Below, in pieces: positions 5,244 to 36,812 of a stretch of 37,151 nucleotides of DNA. Below the pieces are notes generated by a model that searched no databases, was not told where the DNA came from, and was given only the letters and a program-made list of their open reading frames with translations. Position 1 is the stretch's first letter; the number at the start of each line of letters is the position of its first letter. The stretch is from a virus: the IMG/VR virus record IMGVR_UViG_3300009506_000105, positions 1 to 37,151 of that record. One strand, given 5' to 3'. The position numbers were made by a program, and so were the translations under genes.

Positions 5244-7286
5244 CTACCTCGCGAATACTACCTTGGACATCTTGGAAAGGCTCTGGACTTCGTCTCGGAA
5301 CAGGGCCCGGAACCTGGACTCAATCTCACCGGCCACCGTCTGTGGCTCGCGGGCCCCGTCGATCTCGTTCGTGATCTGGATCTCGTACGTATTGTTGATC
5401 GTGGAGAGCAGGACCTGCGGCTCGTGGCCTTTGGTGATCGCCTGCATCGGGACCGCGGGCGCGTTGCTGTCGCCAAGAATCCCGGCCAGGGTCGCGCCGA
5501 CGTCAGTGACCGGGGTCGCGGACACCTCGGACGGCCCGAGCGCCGCGGCCAGGAGCGGATCCGTCACCGTCGACGCGCCGGCCTGCGGTCCAAGCAGCGA
5601 GAGCAGGAGCGGGTCAGTTTCCGGCTTGGTGAATTCAACCTTGAATCCGACTTGCTTGGCCAACTGATCCACTGCGGCCTTGCGCGCCACTTTTTCGCTG
5701 GACCCTTCCGCAAGCACCTTTGCGGCTGTTTCGATCGCCTTTTCAGTCGCGAGCGACGACGCGCCACGGGCCGTGGCCAGGGCCTGGAGAGACTCCGCGA
5801 TCCCGCCCGGCGCGGCCACCAGAATCCGAGCCTCCGCGAGCCGCTCAGCCGCGTCGCGCTGCTCCGCAGTCCCGCCCTTGCCCCCGCCGCCAGGGGTAAG
5901 CGCCTGGCTCTCCTGGAACGCTTTGCGGCGCCTCTTGAGTGCCCCGCTCGCGTCCGGGGTCCAGGCCGGCCCCACGAATTCCCCTTCGATCCGTTTCTCG
6001 AAACGCGCCTGCGCCTCTTCCTCCGCGATCTGGCTGTAGGTCTTCACACCGCCGCGCTCGGTCGTCCGCTTCTGGACCGCGCGGATGGTCTCCTCGGAGA
6101 CCCCGGCCGCCCGTAAGATCCCCTCGTCCTCGGAGCTGATCTTGTCTATGAATCGGTCCCATCGCGTCTGCAAGTCCGAGATCAGACCAACGATCTTGCC
6201 AACCCACTGCGCTAGGGTGGACATGACCGTGACCATCCCACGGATCACGTTCGGAATATCTTGGCGGATCAGCTCTTGATTGTTCGCGATCCAGTCCTTG
6301 AGTCCGGCAAGCTGATCCCGCATCGCGGGCATAAGCTCCGCAGCAATCGAGTGACCTACACCCCTGAGCGTCCCCTTGACCCGCGTAAGCTCGTCCTTGA
6401 ATTCCTCCGCGGTCTTCGCGGACTCGTTCGACATGACCAGCCCGAGATCGCGGGCTTCCTGGCGCATCCTAGCCAACCCCTCGGACCCCTGATCGAACAA
6501 GGGCATTAGCTCCGCGCCCGAGTCCGCGAACAGTTTCATCGCCAGTCCAGCGCGCGCCGTCGGGCTCTCCACGTTCTTCAGCTGGTCCGCGATCATAGGT
6601 AGGAGTCGATCCAGATCTTGCGATTGGACCAACGGGTCTTCGATCGAGATCCCGAGCCGCTCGAACGCCTCCGCGGCCGGGCCTGTTCCCTTGACGATCG
6701 CGTCCCCGAGCCCGCGGGAGAACGCCCGAAGCCCGGTCTTGATCTTCGTGAAATCTGCGCCGGTGAGCTCGGCCGCGTGGCCTAGCTCCTGGACCGCTTC
6801 CGCGGTGAGCCCGAGCTTGGCCGCGTCCTTGGCAGCCGCGTCCGCGACCTCTGCGGTCGAGAGCACGAGCTTACCGAGCCCCGCGGCCGCGGCCGCGCCC
6901 ATGGCCGCGAATCCGATCCCCAATCGCCTGAGCGGCTTTTTCCAATTCTTCTCGAAGCGAGCAGCCGCTGCCTTGCTCTTATCCGCTGCCCGCTTACTAG
7001 CCTGCTCCTGGCTACGCCACGACTCCCGGGCCTCGTTCGCGGTCTCTTTCGCGGCCCGTTGCTGACGCTTAGCAGACTTCAGGACCGCCCGAGCAGACTC
7101 CCGTGCTGCCTTGTCCGTCGCATCCGCAACCGCATCCTGGGCCTTCTGAACCTCTTTCGATGCCTTTTTGTAGGCGTCCTCGGTCTCGCGGGCCTTTTTC
7201 TTCACCTTGCGGGCGGCTTCGTCCAGTTTCTTGGTATCAGGGTCCGCGAACCCGATCCCGATCAGAACCTCACCTACTGTGCTCAC
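5244..7286 (-). CDS. Tail tape measure protein
   Basis: 680 residues, GTG start at 7286 overlapping the chaperone frameshift-product stop (GTGA). The first 120 residues are a charged Lys/Glu/Ala-rich coiled coil; a hydrophobic Ala/Gly segment follows at about 125-148 (RLGIGFAAMGAAAAAG). Then comes a helix-rich part with KLGLTAEAVQELGHAAEL, a motif common in tape measure proteins. A hydrophobic stretch around 345-370 may insert in the membrane during injection. At roughly 0.15 nm per residue the tail would be near 100 nm. Position directly after the tail assembly chaperone and before Dit-like is diagnostic. No lytic transglycosylase or peptidase motif was seen. Confidence 0.93.
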   Translation of the reverse strand: MSTVGEVLIGIGFADPDTKKLDEAARKVKKKARETEDAYKKASKEVQKAQDAVADATDKAARESARAVLKSAKRQQRAAKETANEARESWRSQEQASKRAADKSKAAAARFEKNWKKPLRRLGIGFAAMGAAAAAGLGKLVLSTAEVADAAAKDAAKLGLTAEAVQELGHAAELTGADFTKIKTGLRAFSRGLGDAIVKGTGPAAEAFERLGISIEDPLVQSQDLDRLLPMIADQLKNVESPTARAGLAMKLFADSGAELMPLFDQGSEGLARMRQEARDLGLVMSNESAKTAEEFKDELTRVKGTLRGVGHSIAAELMPAMRDQLAGLKDWIANNQELIRQDIPNVIRGMVTVMSTLAQWVGKIVGLISDLQTRWDRFIDKISSEDEGILRAAGVSEETIRAVQKRTTERGGVKTYSQIAEEEAQARFEKRIEGEFVGPAWTPDASGALKRRRKAFQESQALTPGGGGKGGTAEQRDAAERLAEARILVAAPGGIAESLQALATARGASSLATEKAIETAAKVLAEGSSEKVARKAAVDQLAKQVGFKVEFTKPETDPLLLSLLGPQAGASTVTDPLLAAALGPSEVSATPVTDVGATLAGILGDSNAPAVPMQAITKGHEPQVLLSTINNTYEIQITNEIDGAREPQTVAGEIESRFRALFRDEVQSLSKMSKVVFAR

Positions 7287-8028
7287 GACTGACGCTCCCG
7301 CCGGCGCTTGATCTCGTCCGAGATCCGGTCCTCGTTCCGGAGCGAGGCAGCTCGCCAGCTGCGCCCAACTTCATCGATCTCGAGCAAGTCGAGCGCGTCG
7401 TCTAGGCTCAGCGAAGTGCGCAGGGCTGTGTACATGGTTTCCTTCACGTCCCCTTCCGGGGACAGCACCAGACCAACAATCAGCGGGTGGACGTTGACCG
7501 GATCTAGTCCCCGCTCGGGATCGGGAAGTCTGACGAGCTGTCCGTTCCCGTCCCGCCGCCGGTAAGGCTCCCACTTTCCGAGTGGAAGCCTAGCGTAAAA
7601 CCCACGTAGTTGTGCAAGAGCACGAACAGAAGCACCTGGAACAAGTGCGGGAGCTCGCCCGCGAAATGGGCGTCGAACGCGGGCGCGACCGGCCCGCCTT
7701 TGGCGTTCCCGGGCCGCAGACGCGAAGCCTTGAGCCGCTCACACAACGCAAGAGGAAGCCCAGGATCATCCGCAAGGCCCGCGGCGATCTTCACGATCGC
7801 CTGCCGACCGGCCACCGTCGTCCGGAGCTCGGTGATCGCATCGTCGATCTCAAGGTCCGCGTTCTCGTCGGTGAACACCGAGAGCAGCGCCCGCAAACCC
7901 TGCTCTCCGAGTATCTGAACAACCCGAGCAAGCAACGCAACCGATTGCATGGCCGGAAACTTGGACGACGAATAGACGATCCCGCCGATCGTCTCCTGCG
8001 TCACCGCTTCGCGATACTTCTCAATCAC
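7283..8028 (-). CDS. Tail assembly chaperone, extended -1 frameshift product (G-T type)
   Basis: Inferred joined product: 144 residues in the first frame (8028 to 7597), then a shift of -1 at the heptamer G GGT TTT (7603-7597), then 104 residues in the new frame ending at 7283; about 248 residues in all. The second frame stays open through the whole overlap and beyond, reading FYARLPLGKWEPYRRRDGNG next to the shift, and ends in charged helical sequence (ISDEIKRRRERQS). Its own first ATG is only at 7468, giving a 61-residue remnant, so independent translation is less likely. In lambda (G/GT) and many myophages the extended form brings tube subunits to the tape measure. Here the stop overlaps the tape measure GTG. 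Confidence 0.8.
7504..8028 (-). CDS. Tail assembly chaperone, short (unshifted) product
   Basis: 174 residues, ATG at 8028 overlapping the tube gene stop (ATGA). Sequence features are SSSKFPAMQSVALLARVVQ, an acidic helix (LSVFTDENADLEIDDAI) and a hydrophobic end (LFQVLLFVLLHNYV) just before the frameshift site. Beyond the site the zero-frame tail (FHSESGSLTGGGTGTDSSS) is low-complexity, as expected for an appendage made when no shift occurs. Position between tail tube and tape measure is that of the G-type chaperone. Not a virion protein in known cases. Confidence 0.85.
   Translation of the reverse strand: MIEKYREAVTQETIGGIVYSSSKFPAMQSVALLARVVQILGEQGLRALLSVFTDENADLEIDDAITELRTTVAGRQAIVKIAAGLADDPGLPLALCERLKASRLRPGNAKGGPVAPAFDAHFAGELPHLFQVLLFVLLHNYVGFTLGFHSESGSLTGGGTGTDSSSDFPIPSGD
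7566..7603 (-). promoter_or_regulatory. Programmed -1 ribosomal frameshift site with hairpin
   Basis: On the minus strand: heptamer GGGTTTT at 7603-7597 in phase as G GGT TTT (X XXY YYZ), spacer ACGCTA (6 nt), then a hairpin with arms 7590-7581 (GGCTTCCACT) and 7575-7566 (AGTGGGAGCC): ten pairs with one G-U, loop CGGAA. P-site GGT can re-pair as GGG and A-site TTT as TTT. All parts of a classical signal are present in the right phase and order, within the gene where such shifts are known. The event itself is an inference. Confidence 0.85.
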
Positions 8029-8489
8029 AGTGCCGACGCCCCTCCGAGCAGCGCAACGCGGTCCGCGTACCCGAACACATAGACACGGTCCGCGGCCGTG
8101 TCACCGAACGCGGGATCGGGATCGTTCTCGATGAACGCCCCGATATAGGTCATGATCGTAGATCCGTTCAAGTCCTTGATCACGATATCCCCGACGATCG
8201 AGCCGGTTTCCCCGTCCGCGATCACCAGCGGCGTGAGCAGGTCCTGAATCTCGGACTCCGCGACATACGTGAGTGTGAGCGTACCACCCTTTTTTCGGGA
8301 CCGGTTCCGGACTACGTTGCTGTTCCGGTCGCTGCGCCGCGTCCATTTCGGGGCGTCCTTGGCATCCACGATCGCGTTTGGGCCGTCTATCAGCCCCTCG
8401 GCCAGATCGATCGAGCCGGTCTCGCCACCACGAAAAGACCACGAGATCGTGATCTGATCCGGATCGTATTGTCTGAGCTCTCCCGACAT
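8025..8489 (-). CDS. Tail tube protein (DUF3277-like)
   Basis: 154 residues. The opening YDPDQITISWSFRGG, then DAPKWTRRSDRNSNVVRNRS and LTLTYVAESEIQDLLTPL, and a later YIGAFIENDPD, are typical of DUF3277-type tube proteins of myophages, paired with DUF3383-type sheaths. Such proteins polymerise into the inner tail tube. A purine-rich ribosome site (TAGGAG) lies about ten bases upstream of the ATG at 8489. It follows the sheath gene after a 12-base gap, in the normal order. Confidence 0.88.
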   Translation of the reverse strand: MSGELRQYDPDQITISWSFRGGETGSIDLAEGLIDGPNAIVDAKDAPKWTRRSDRNSNVVRNRSRKKGGTLTLTYVAESEIQDLLTPLVIADGETGSIVGDIVIKDLNGSTIMTYIGAFIENDPDPAFGDTAADRVYVFGYADRVALLGGASAL

Positions 8490-8501: not shown

Positions 8502-9953
8502 CTACATGCTGAGGTCGATGGTGAATCCGACGTTGGTTGCGTCGCCTACGCTCAAGATCTCAGGCGCGACGACGGCTTCCGCGGTCATGCCGGTGAGCCG
8601 GCCATTTGACTTGTCAGTGCTACTCACCGCGCTGGCCGCGGGCACGTCCACGTAAGGTGTGATCCGCCCAGTGTTCTCGCTGACAGCCCCGTCCAGGAAA
8701 TGACCGGCCCTGGTCAAGCGCTGGAACACGCCCATGGCCGCGGTCTGGAGCTGGGCAATCCCCGCGTCCGAGAACAGAACCGCCGGTCGATTGCTGGCCG
8801 CGGCGCGGAGGAACACACCGAGAAACGCTTCCTCGAGCCGCGCCTGGAGCACGTCCAGCGACGTCTGGATCTTCAAACTCCGACCGCTCGTGGCCCGGCC
8901 CGGGAACGTGAAGCCGCCCTCTTCCGTCCCGGACGTGTACCGCACCGGGGAACAGAAGTTGGTGTTATAGGCCATGAGCTGCGTCTTCTGGGCGTCCGTG
9001 AGCCGCGTCGCGGTAATCCCCGCCGGCACGTGGTAGGCCCAGGAGCCCGAGCCCTGCGGAGCATCCAGCGCGAACCCGAGACACCGACCGCACCAGCTCC
9101 CGTCCATGTACTCGGTATCGTCGTCGTGATAGATCAGCGCCGTGCGATTGTACTCCGCGTCCGACGTGAGCTCGCCGGGGTTCTGCGTCCCTGGCGTGTC
9201 GGTCTCCACGATCAGACCATCCGGGGTCTCGGGATCGGTAATCTCGAACGTGTAGAGGTTCCCGAGCCCGTCGAAATCGATCAGCACATTGTTCGTGGAC
9301 CCACCGGCCGCGGCACTGATCGCCGCGAGCGCCGGTACAGCATCCCACGCGGTACGCATCGCGGTTGCAAGATCGTTGTTCGCGGCCGGGGTACCACCCG
9401 TCCTGGTAACGGTAGCCGTGCCGACCAATGCGCCAGTCCACGCATCGGTAACCGCGATTGAATAATCACCGTCCGCGGGGGTACCCTGAAACTGGAAATT
9501 GGTTTGCTGCGCAGTCGAGGCCGTGCCCGCAAGCATGGCCGCAGATGAGGACTGCGCTACGGCAAGCTTAGCTCGGGACGAAGTCCAGCCAGCCAGCGCC
9601 ATGATATCGGCAGTCGTGCGGGTGTGGATATTCGTCAGATACCAAGCAGCCGGATCGACAGCCTCAATCGCGTCCAGGGCCGTAACCAGGTGCTCGCCCG
9701 TACCGCGCCGGCCGATCATGACCGAGCTGGTACGCGGGCGCTGAGCGAAAATCCGACCTGCCCAATTGTAGATCGTCGGTGCCGCTGCAAGAGTGAAGCC
9801 CGCGGCCGCCACCGCTGCTTGACTCGTATACGGACCGTCCTGGCGGTTCGCCGTGATCGCGTGCTCAGCCACGAACATCGGAACACCGAACACCGCGGCC
9901 GCGGCCGACGCTGCGGCCAGCGCGATCTGAAGATTAACGTGCATAGTGATCAT
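8502..9953 (-). CDS. Tail sheath protein (DUF3383-like)
   Basis: 483 residues, ATG at 9953 overlapping the preceding stop (ATGA); a second ATG lies at 9944. The early TIYNWAGRIFAQRP and an Ala-rich domain with DIMALAGWTSSRAKLAV, an inserted Ig-like/flagellin-like region around 150-240 (DYSIAVTDAWTGALVG), then TALIYHDDDTEYMDG and a conserved C-terminal part (AVLFSDAGIAQLQ, TRAGHFLDGAV, GFTIDLSM) match DUF3383 sheath proteins. The protein forms the contractile outer tail. Length and position directly before the tube gene agree. Confidence 0.9.
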   Translation of the reverse strand: MITMHVNLQIALAAASAAAAVFGVPMFVAEHAITANRQDGPYTSQAAVAAAGFTLAAAPTIYNWAGRIFAQRPRTSSVMIGRRGTGEHLVTALDAIEAVDPAAWYLTNIHTRTTADIMALAGWTSSRAKLAVAQSSSAAMLAGTASTAQQTNFQFQGTPADGDYSIAVTDAWTGALVGTATVTRTGGTPAANNDLATAMRTAWDAVPALAAISAAAGGSTNNVLIDFDGLGNLYTFEITDPETPDGLIVETDTPGTQNPGELTSDAEYNRTALIYHDDDTEYMDGSWCGRCLGFALDAPQGSGSWAYHVPAGITATRLTDAQKTQLMAYNTNFCSPVRYTSGTEEGGFTFPGRATSGRSLKIQTSLDVLQARLEEAFLGVFLRAAASNRPAVLFSDAGIAQLQTAAMGVFQRLTRAGHFLDGAVSENTGRITPYVDVPAASAVSSTDKSNGRLTGMTAEAVVAPEILSVGDATNVGFTIDLSM

Positions 9954-10752
9954 GATGCGACTCCCGAAAAGGTACCGGGGTTCAGCTCCCCGGAGTAGTG
10001 AACTTCAGTAATGGGCAGTAGCGAGACCGCCCGATACGCCCGCGCCGCCACCGGCACGCGCACCGACGCACGCGATTGCCAGTCCGCACCAGCGAGCGTC
10101 GTCAAGTCTATGATATCGCCAGCGCGACCGGGGAACGAGATCCCCCACCGCTGGCGCGCCTCTACCACGTCGGGCGACGCGAGCCCCGAGACCACGTCCC
10201 CGAGCAGCTCCTGCGCCTCCAGCCCACGGCCGTCAGCGTACGCTTGGATCTCCAGCTCGCCCCTCACTGTGCCAGTGGTAACGCGGGCGTTCGCGTCGGT
10301 CGTCACCGTGACCGCGCTCGCCCCGATCGCGACCGGGCGCCAGAGTCGGCCCACGACTCCGGACGCGCTAAAGTCGATCGAATCACTCCCGAACGCGCTG
10401 GTGCTCACCCCAGGCAGCTCTGTCGCCGGCACCAGCGCCGCCAAGAGACGGTCCCGGACGTCCGTCAACGTGTCCCCGCCTTGGCCCGCGACCGTCCACC
10501 GAGCGCCGGTAACGTCGATCCCGACCACCGCCCCGGTGCTGATCGCGGTTGCCGTCCACCGGACCAGCGTAGGTTCCGACTGCTCAAAAGTACAAAATCC
10601 GACCATTCGTGCAGTCGGGAGCTTGGCCGCGAGCACAGAGCCGCCCTGCGCCCGCTCAGGCTGCCGCGCCGGCGCCCAAAGTACCTTAGCGCTCGGGGCC
10701 GCGGCCTGGAGCACCGCGACCGTCGCAAGGCGTATGCGGCTGAAGTGGATCA

Positions 10753-10753
<1 letters not shown>
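9950..10753 (-). CDS. Probable tail terminator/neck protein
   Basis: 267 residues, ATG at 10753. Not recognised with certainty. The C-terminal part has WGISFPGRAGDIIDLTTLA followed by WQSRASVRVPVAARAYRA and PITEVHYSGEL, resembling the strand-helix ending of phage LIC/neck-terminator proteins (R-x-S/A... then ITEV). The first half is Ala/Val/Thr-rich, with RDRLLAALVPATELPGVS. Position between connector genes and the sheath is where tail terminators sit. It could instead be another neck component. Confidence 0.5.
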
Positions 10754-13375: not shown

Positions 13376-13409
13376 GTGCGATCCTTGCAGGCGCCCGCGG
13401 TCGGTAGGT

Positions 13410-13442
13410 GGTCCCGGGAGCCGGCGCCAGGCTCCCGGGACC
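13410..13442 (-). terminator. Strong GC hairpin after the capsid gene
   Basis: Perfect 13-base inverted repeat, arms 13410-13422 (GGTCCCGGGAGCC) and 13430-13442, with a 7-base loop. It lies 40 bases past the capsid stop and 35 bases before the next gene start. No T-run follows on the minus strand, so it is more likely a partial terminator or mRNA 3'-end stabiliser that lowers expression downstream of the capsid gene than a full intrinsic terminator. Confidence 0.65.
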
Positions 13443-13481
13443 GAGCGAGTAAGCTAATCGCGCCGCCCCCTTAGACCAGGG

Positions 13482-21239: not shown

Positions 21240-21694
21240 AGAACGAACCGAAGCATCCCAGCGAGTGCCGGGCCTGGAACCTCTGGTCATGGATCCGGAA
21301 CTACAGCAAGCGCCTCCGCCGATGGCACCGGCACCAGGAGCGGAAGACTGAGCAGCGCCGCCGCAAGTACGAAGCCGCGCAGCTTGTCCCCAGCGAAGTC
21401 CTCGAGAACCTGAGCCCCGGCGAGTTGGCTCAGCTGGTCATGATGTACCCGAACCATCACCGGACCGGGAGCAGTCCGGAGCTTGATCAGCTCGTGCGTC
21501 GCAAGTGCGTGCGGTGGCTCAGCCTCGGGACGCGCACCCGCTGGTACCAGCTGACGGACCTTGGCCGCGCAGTCGTTGAGCTACACCGGGAGCAACTGGC
21601 AGGGCACACTAGCGTACCCCCGGTACTTGATCCGGCGGACTTTGACGAGCTCTCGGACGAATACGAGGAAACGAACAATGACCGACCGAATTGA
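21236..21694 (+). CDS. Basic protein with winged-helix-like region
   Basis: 152 residues, ATG at 21236. Basic N-terminal helix (RNYSKRLRRWHRHQERKTEQ), then LSPGELAQLVMMYPN and RRKCVRWLSLGTRTRWYQLTD, which reads as recognition helix, wing and L-T-x-x-G-R turn of small winged-helix proteins (YQLTDLGRAVVE). Acidic C-terminal tail (FDELSDEYEE). Possible DNA-binding regulator. Its last 17 bases overlap the pentapeptide gene. Confidence 0.55.
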   Translation: MKNEPKHPSECRAWNLWSWIRNYSKRLRRWHRHQERKTEQRRRKYEAAQLVPSEVLENLSPGELAQLVMMYPNHHRTGSSPELDQLVRRKCVRWLSLGTRTRWYQLTDLGRAVVELHREQLAGHTSVPPVLDPADFDELSDEYEETNNDRPN

Positions 21695-22382
21695 TCTGAT
21701 CAAGCGCATCCGGGCGGGAGAATGTACCGCGGCGGACCTGCACTGGGCGAACCTGCGCGGGGCGGACCTGCGCGGGGCGGACCTGCACGGGGCGGACCTG
21801 CACGGGGCGGACCTGCACGGGGCGGACCTGCACTGGGCGGACCTGTCCGCGGCGAACCTGTCCTGGGCGAACCTGTCAAGGGCGGACCTGTCTGGGGCGG
21901 ACCTGTCCTGGGCGGACCTGTCCAGGGCGAACCTGTCCGGGGCGGACCTGTCCAGGGCGAACCTGTCCGGGGCGGACCTGTCCGCCGCGGACCTGTCAAG
22001 GGCGGACCTGCCCGCGGCGGACCTGCGCGGGGCGGACCTGCGCGGGGCAGACCTGCACGGGGCGGACCTGCACGGGGCGGACCTGCACGGGGCGGACCTG
22101 TCTGGGGCGTACTGGTCCCGCACACGCCTCCACAAATCCGGCACCTGGTCTGAGCGCCCCCCGTCCTGCCTCGCAGGTGACTGGCATGCGCAAGTCGTGG
22201 CGCCAAGCATCGTCAAGATCAGTTGCGTAACACACACGATCAGAGACTGGCTCGGGGAGACCGGCAAGAGGTTGGCCGCTGACTACAACGTCTCACCGCA
22301 TGACCGCTGGCTGCTCAGGATTTGGATGGAAGGTTTGGCGATGCGCGGTGTGTGGCCAGAGTGGAAGGAAACGAGCGAATGA
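21678..22382 (+). CDS. Pentapeptide repeat protein
   Basis: 234 residues. ATG at 21678 has a ribosome site (GAGGAA) upstream; an earlier start at 21561 would overlap the preceding gene heavily. Residues about 19-143 are 25 perfect A(D/N)LxX pentads, predicted to form a right-handed quadrilateral beta-helix. The C-terminal part (WHAQVVAPSIVKISCVTHTI, then WLLRIWMEG) is a small domain often found after phage pentapeptide repeats. Some members (MfpA, Qnr) mimic DNA and bind gyrase; whether this one does is unknown. Embedded in the accessory operon. Confidence 0.85.
   Translation: MTDRIDLIKRIRAGECTAADLHWANLRGADLRGADLHGADLHGADLHGADLHWADLSAANLSWANLSRADLSGADLSWADLSRANLSGADLSRANLSGADLSAADLSRADLPAADLRGADLRGADLHGADLHGADLHGADLSGAYWSRTRLHKSGTWSERPPSCLAGDWHAQVVAPSIVKISCVTHTIRDWLGETGKRLAADYNVSPHDRWLLRIWMEGLAMRGVWPEWKETSE
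21732..22106 (+). repeat. 15-base tandem repeat coding for pentapeptides
   Basis: About 25 copies of a 15-base unit of the form GCGGACCTGCRCGGG with small changes. Two nearly identical blocks (GCGGACCTGCACGGG repeated, at about 21777-21835 and 22040-22100) suggest recent expansion or recombination. Because the unit is a multiple of three, other frames are also open and give false long reading frames. Confidence 0.85.
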
Positions 22383-36647: not shown

Positions 36648-36796
36648 GCTTTGCGGATAGCGTCGATCACTTCACAGGGGGTCGAGCACTTCGGGATTAG
36701 GCCCTGGTCAGCCAGCGCCGCGCCGAGCTCGGACACGCAGGACTCGAGATCGGCGAGGCGCTGGCGAAGTGCTAGCACGCTTCGCGGTGCTAGCAC
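36635..36796 (-). CDS. Small Cys-containing protein, start uncertain
   Basis: 53 residues from GTG 36796; GTG 36778 (47 residues) and ATG 36844 (overlaps the previous gene) are alternatives, and none has a good ribosome site. Helix (ALRQRLADLESCVSELGAAL) then CSTPCEVIDAIRKACNC with four Cys. The first codons lie inside a perfect inverted repeat (36763-36802) that could hide the start in the mRNA. No family known. Confidence 0.45.
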   Translation of the reverse strand: MLAPRSVLALRQRLADLESCVSELGAALADQGLIPKCSTPCEVIDAIRKACNC

Positions 36797-36802
36797 TTCG
36801 CC
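36763..36802. repeat. Perfect 16-base inverted repeat with palindromic cores
   Basis: Arms GGCGAAGTGCTAGCAC (36763-36778) and GTGCTAGCACTTCGCC (36787-36802), loop of 8. Each arm holds GTGCTAGCAC, itself a perfect 10-base palindrome, centred 18 bases apart. It lies at the start of the small gene at 36635-36796. Could be a dimeric operator pair, or an mRNA hairpin. Confidence 0.7.
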
Positions 36803-36812
36803 ACGGCGGCGT

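Follow-up and report, generated by a model that had tools for sequence, protein, structure and literature searches.

Tail assembly chaperone (TAC) genes read through a ribosomal frameshift are a textbook system, well known in tailed phages. In phage lambda, a gene at the same position as the one described here gives an abundant short chaperone (gpG) and a rare frameshifted long chaperone (gpGT) (PMC5009743); the lambda tail is non-contractile, its slip heptamer is GGGAAAG, and we found no sequence relationship between lambda and the present locus. In the Vandenendeviridae, a -1 shift in the TAC gene has been described in 159 genomes with an invariant GTTTTT motif, which is also found in 231 Andersonviridae phages (PMC12846349). 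The heptamer GGGTTTT has itself been predicted as a -1 slip site in the tape measure chaperone gene (gp16/gp16.1) of a myovirus, Burkholderia phage PhiE067, in a passage that mentions no hairpin (PMC7266877); the likeness to our locus is one of slip site and gene only, and no sequence kinship is claimed.

Our locus lies in a virus record of 37,151 bases and 64% GC that was analysed over its whole length (the window), and the genes of its TAC region are on the minus strand. A sequence-only reading had placed a -1 frameshift signal in a TAC gene here, and that reading is supported by the homology of both halves of the gene (PF21822 for the first, phrog_3976 for the second). A -1 programmed frameshift is by far the best reading of the TAC gene on present sequence evidence. 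The frameshift signal is real and very probably functional, and we hold with high confidence that -1 programmed ribosomal frameshifting would let one gene give two tail assembly chaperones. The mechanism itself is already known, and the heptamer and hairpin of the window are its own version within the published frameshift family.

The minus-strand order of the tail module is tail terminator-like, sheath, tube, TAC, tape measure and baseplate. The tail terminator-like gene (9950-10753) was recognized below the Pfam cut-off. The sheath gene (8502-9953) matches phrog_205 tail sheath (E 2e-41) and, in tblastn, the sheaths of Dibbivirus and Pakpunavirus. The tube gene (8025-8489) matches phrog_280, annotated as a virion structural protein (E 6e-21), and its assignment is given by alignment and by a tblastn match to an annotated tail tube protein. 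The tape measure gene (5244-7286, 680 aa) matches phrog_8462 tail length tape measure protein (E 4e-43). The presence of a sheath gene shows that the phage is contractile-tailed, which places it with Dibbivirus, Vandenendeviridae and Ounavirinae and not with lambda. Consequently, the label 'lambda-like' given earlier stands for mechanism and position and fails for kinship, the homologues being found in DUF3383-sheath myophages. The nearest annotated relatives, namely Dibbivirus, Manatee Spring phage ctsHD2, Pakpunavirus with allied Pseudomonas myophages, and Ounavirinae phage vB_PsaM_M1, are distant: their sheath and tube proteins share about 21-29% identity with those of the window. No close relative emerged from searches of IMG/VR with the proteins for TAC, tube, sheath, capsid, baseplate and DNA polymerase (two short contigs were the only matches to the polymerase), from searches of GTDB genomes with the sheath and TAC proteins, from a DNA pattern of the frameshift site, or from blastn of 5 kb against phage records; the ctsHD2 sheath as a query gave no match either. 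These collections may omit records very near the window, and the relatives were so diverse that their alignments could not serve as search queries.

The locus shares with the Vandenendeviridae and Andersonviridae (e.g., Pakpunavirus Adele; PMC12846349) the gene order, a PF21822 first half (TAC-N), a phrog_3976 second half (TAC-C), a -1 frame that is open to near the tape measure gene, and a slip on the Phe codon UUU just past an N-[YF] motif. It differs from them in the slip sequence, which in those families is GTTTTT (read as G_GTT_TTT, not a full X_XXY_YYZ) and in the window is G_GGT_TTT. It is therefore a relative with another slip sequence that falls outside the GTTTTT motif class. Furthermore, NoPa, PAK_P4 and PPSC2 have no strong hairpin adjoining the slip, whereas the window has one of 11 bp. 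With Dibbivirus (DIBBI, AAM37 and PSKM) and ctsHD2 the window shares the tail module and the two-frame layout, the joint product being unannotated in their records; it differs from Dibbivirus, which has C_CCT_TTT and no strong hairpin, and from ctsHD2, which has T_TTT_TTA and a weaker hairpin.

The zero-frame product TAC-N (7504-8028, 174 aa) starts at a GTG that overlaps the stop of the tube gene. It passes the gathering cut-off of Pfam PF21822 (Phage_TAC_15; 27.8 bits against 22); the strongest part of the match takes in the end of the profile alone and spans residues 113-144, stopping right at the slip codons GF. It also matches phrog_1613 tail assembly chaperone (E 1.8e-4), and a profile built from the TAC-N proteins of relatives gave a single match among the 550 ORFs of the window, which was TAC-N (E 7e-5). 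These profile searches alone succeeded, tblastn of TAC-N against phages having returned no match.

As in genes of the G/GT type, this ORF lies between the tube and tape measure genes, a slippery sequence is in phase within the overlap, and a second ORF in the -1 frame overlaps the end of the first without a good start of its own. The heptamer G_GGT_TTT (7597-7603) has the X_XXY_YYZ phase in the ORF at 7504-8028, as first described, with GGT in the P site and TTT in the A site (codons GTG, GGT, TTT, ACG). A letter-for-letter check of the minus strand across the site reads TAC GTG GGT TTT ACG CTA GGC TTC. GGGTTTT is the sole in-phase X_XXY_YYZ in the overlap of the two frames. Across 23 genes of the window, such motifs occupy 13 of 7558 codon positions, so that the 78-codon overlap would be expected to hold about 0.13 by chance, or about 0.07 with YYY restricted to AAA or TTT. 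In E. coli assays, G_GG.U_UU.U does not belong to the most efficient class, which includes H_HH.U_UU.Y, and R_RR.U_UU.Y motifs were shiftier than expected (PMC4066793).

The two-frame layout is kept in ten relatives (ctsHD2, the three Dibbivirus phages, NoPa, PAK_P4, PPSC2, M1, Meifeng and Yen_X1), in which the -1 frame is open to about 30 nt or less from the tape-measure start. Their in-phase slip sequences are T_TTT_TTA, C_CCT_TTT, G_GTT_TTT, C_CCA_AAC or G_GAT_TTT, and the slip codons stand 3 or 4 codons past the conserved N-[YF] wherever that motif is present. The contexts are NYV-GF in the window, NFG-PF in Dibbivirus, NFT-PF in Meifeng, N[YF]GS-VF in NoPa, PAK_P4 and PPSC2, NFAD-PN in M1 and NFAR-FL in ctsHD2; in Yen_X1 the context is CFP-DF, without the N. 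CASP1 and Vibrio phage 1.123 also have candidate sites, but their -1 frames end 204 and 78 nt before the annotated tape-measure start. Conservation had been proposed as a check on the signal, and among these distant relatives it holds for layout and slip position but not for the identity of the heptamer or for the hairpin.

The spacer ACGCTA (7591-7596) has the 6 nt originally read, and it is followed by the 10-bp hairpin with a 5-nt loop that had been described together with it (7566-7590; arms GGCTTCCACT and AGTGGGAGCC, loop CGGAA), a candidate stimulator. An outer A-U closing pair would extend the stem to 11 bp (7565-7591) and shorten the spacer to 5 nt. The energy of the 25-nt hairpin is -15.8 kcal/mol. 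Sharma et al. (PMC4066793) defined bacterial stimulators by a hairpin of 17-140 nt that starts 4-10 nt after the motif, has a G-C first pair followed by at least three pairs, and reaches at least 7.6 kcal/mol. The hairpin agrees with all four rules, having 25 nt, a 6-nt spacer, a G-C first pair in a 10-bp stem, and 15.8 kcal/mol. A fold as good as that of the 40 nt after the heptamer occurs in only 0.75% of the 40-nt windows of the minus strand, and one as good as that of the following 27 nt in only 0.08% of 27-nt windows. Heptamer and hairpin of such strength and spacing would coincide in about one per thousand such genes, independence assumed, and it is this joint placement that is improbable, not the 10-bp stem alone. 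Matches to known RNA families at the site were at chance level only. An extra-long fold, with the spacer paired to 3' sequence, was discounted because it would be melted by a ribosome positioned on the heptamer.

The alternative that survives best concerns this hairpin: the shift would be real, the hairpin fortuitous, and the heptamer alone, or another element, would drive a low rate. Stems of at least 10 bp are common in this 64% GC genome (35 of 10 bp listed on the minus strand, overlapping registers counted separately), many predicted hairpins proved fortuitous in the published analysis (PMC4066793), and most of the distant relatives with the same layout lack a strong hairpin, the fold after the site being more stable than its shuffles only in the window and M1 and marginally so in ctsHD2 (z -1.9). 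On the other hand, the hairpin of the window is correctly spaced and, of 173 segments taken from the 197 nt downstream, it folds best; its folding density exceeds that of its surroundings by a ddG/nt of 0.44 kcal/mol (published threshold 0.09; PMC4066793); the 30-nt version (7563-7592) has z = -4.9, with none of 200 shuffles as good; and no Shine-Dalgarno-like sequence was found in the 25 nt upstream of the site. We thus regard a fortuitous hairpin as rather unlikely. Its absence from most distant relatives indicates that the hairpin is lineage-specific. Given that it passes the published rules and that R_RR.U_UU.Y is shiftier than expected, it is plausible that a middling heptamer works here with a strong hairpin, which may compensate for it.

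The -1 extension TAC-C (7283-7597, 104 aa) joins TAC-N after GF to give a fusion (TAC-NC) of 248 aa with the junction GF-YAR. The -1 frame is open from 7283 to 7738, and the stop of TAC-C overlaps the tape-measure start (7286), as had been claimed of a frame open from the slip site to that gene. The further claim that it reads as coherent protein is borne out over 7287-7503, past the zero-frame stop, where both other frames contain stops and the -1 frame, which has none, has a codon-usage score of +24.7 against their -34.5 and -29.5. In addition, the -1 ORF matches phrog_3976 at 7367-7504 (E 3e-4 in the library scan, 4e-6 in a single-record search). This family also weakly matches six of 14 control genomes, so that a unique and well-placed match counts for more than the E-value; NoPa, PAK_P4, PPSC2 and vB_PsaM_M1 each have a single match per record, located between TAC-N and the tape measure gene in the -1 frame. 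An HMMER profile of all relatives' TAC-C did not pick out the -1 ORF of the window (E 5.5), so the assignment of TAC-C draws on one family match, codon usage and position. A tblastn search of TAC-C against phages gave no match.

Could TAC-C instead be a separate gene with an internal start (GTG 7468, GTG 7447 or ATG 7435), the heptamer being incidental? ATG 7435 is preceded by GAAGGAAACC, a plausible ribosome binding site, and T4-like phages are thought to make their TAC proteins without frameshifting (by the title of Vladimirov 2022, cited in PMC12846349). However, any of these starts would lose at least the first 12 of the 46 residues of the phrog_3976 match (7504-7367) and would leave the open -1 stretch at 7469-7596 unused. 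The first ATG, GTG or TTG of the -1 frame is at 7468, with none earlier, so that this stretch is reachable by frameshift only, barring a rarer start such as CTG. A separate gene would also leave unexplained an in-phase heptamer and a well-spaced hairpin at the very slip position of the relatives, and we consider it very improbable.

That a sequencing or assembly indel split a continuous TAC gene is hardly credible: the window is a single virus contig for which the searches found no close relative for comparison, yet ten independently sequenced relatives share the two-frame layout, with the change of frame at the corresponding point of the protein, and the hairpin and the coincidence with a slip site are not what a random indel would produce. 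A +1 shift is excluded, as the +1 frame stops 85 nt short of the tape measure gene and has non-coding codon usage. Transcriptional slippage at the site was rejected, the T run comprising only four bases.

With -1 frameshifting as the preferred reading, most ribosomes would read TAC-N to its stop at 7504-7506. A minority would be paused by the hairpin six bases downstream of the heptamer, where tRNA-Gly on GGU and tRNA-Phe on UUU would both slip one base back and re-pair with GGG and UUU. The slipped ribosomes would continue in the -1 frame to give TAC-NC. By analogy with lambda gpG and gpGT (PMC5009743), the tape measure protein may be coated by many copies of TAC-N, while the less abundant TAC-NC may recruit tail tube subunits through its TAC-C end.

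This reading corrects the annotation of a divergent phage, in which one gene with two products replaces an orphan ORF, and extends the published frameshift family to contractile phages with small genomes. The relatives assembled here constitute a natural series for the trade-off between slip sequence and stimulator strength that would hold the chaperone ratio. In DUF3383-sheath myophages, the frameshift may be fixed at one protein position (3-4 codons past N-[YF], at the end of TAC-N) as the slip sequence turns over freely (GGGTTTT, GGTTTTT, CCCTTTT, TTTTTTA, CCCAAAC), with strong hairpins in some lineages only, perhaps compensating for weaker slips such as G_GG.U_UU.U. Selection would then keep the position and not the signal, a proposal to which we give an even chance.

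Several observations concern the records of other phages. The public Dibbivirus records carry the short TAC product only, and an unannotated -1 TAC-C with an in-phase C_CCT_TTT is present in the three of them at 9561-9821, 5561-5821 and 5537-5797. In vB_PsaM_M1 (6138-6198), a long hairpin (z -4.9 over 60 nt) begins 6 nt past C_CCA_AAC, and TAC-N and TAC-C are annotated as two separate genes. In Aeribacillus phage AP45 (5090-5553), the open frame leading from the putative TAC to the tape measure gene is +1, not -1, which could reflect a +1 frameshift or a misannotated start.

Elsewhere in the window, a pentapeptide-repeat protein with runs of ADL[SHR]x is encoded at 21561-22382 on the plus strand, opposite to the structural genes. 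A G+C-rich hairpin of 13-14 bp separates the major capsid gene from its neighbour, the next gene (13409-13443); no T run follows it, and it is possibly a processing or attenuation site. Near the right end (36762-36803), a perfect 17-bp inverted repeat with an 8-nt loop (TGGCGAAGTGCTAGCAC...GTGCTAGCACTTCGCCA) is, of the stems found in the window, the longest without interruption.
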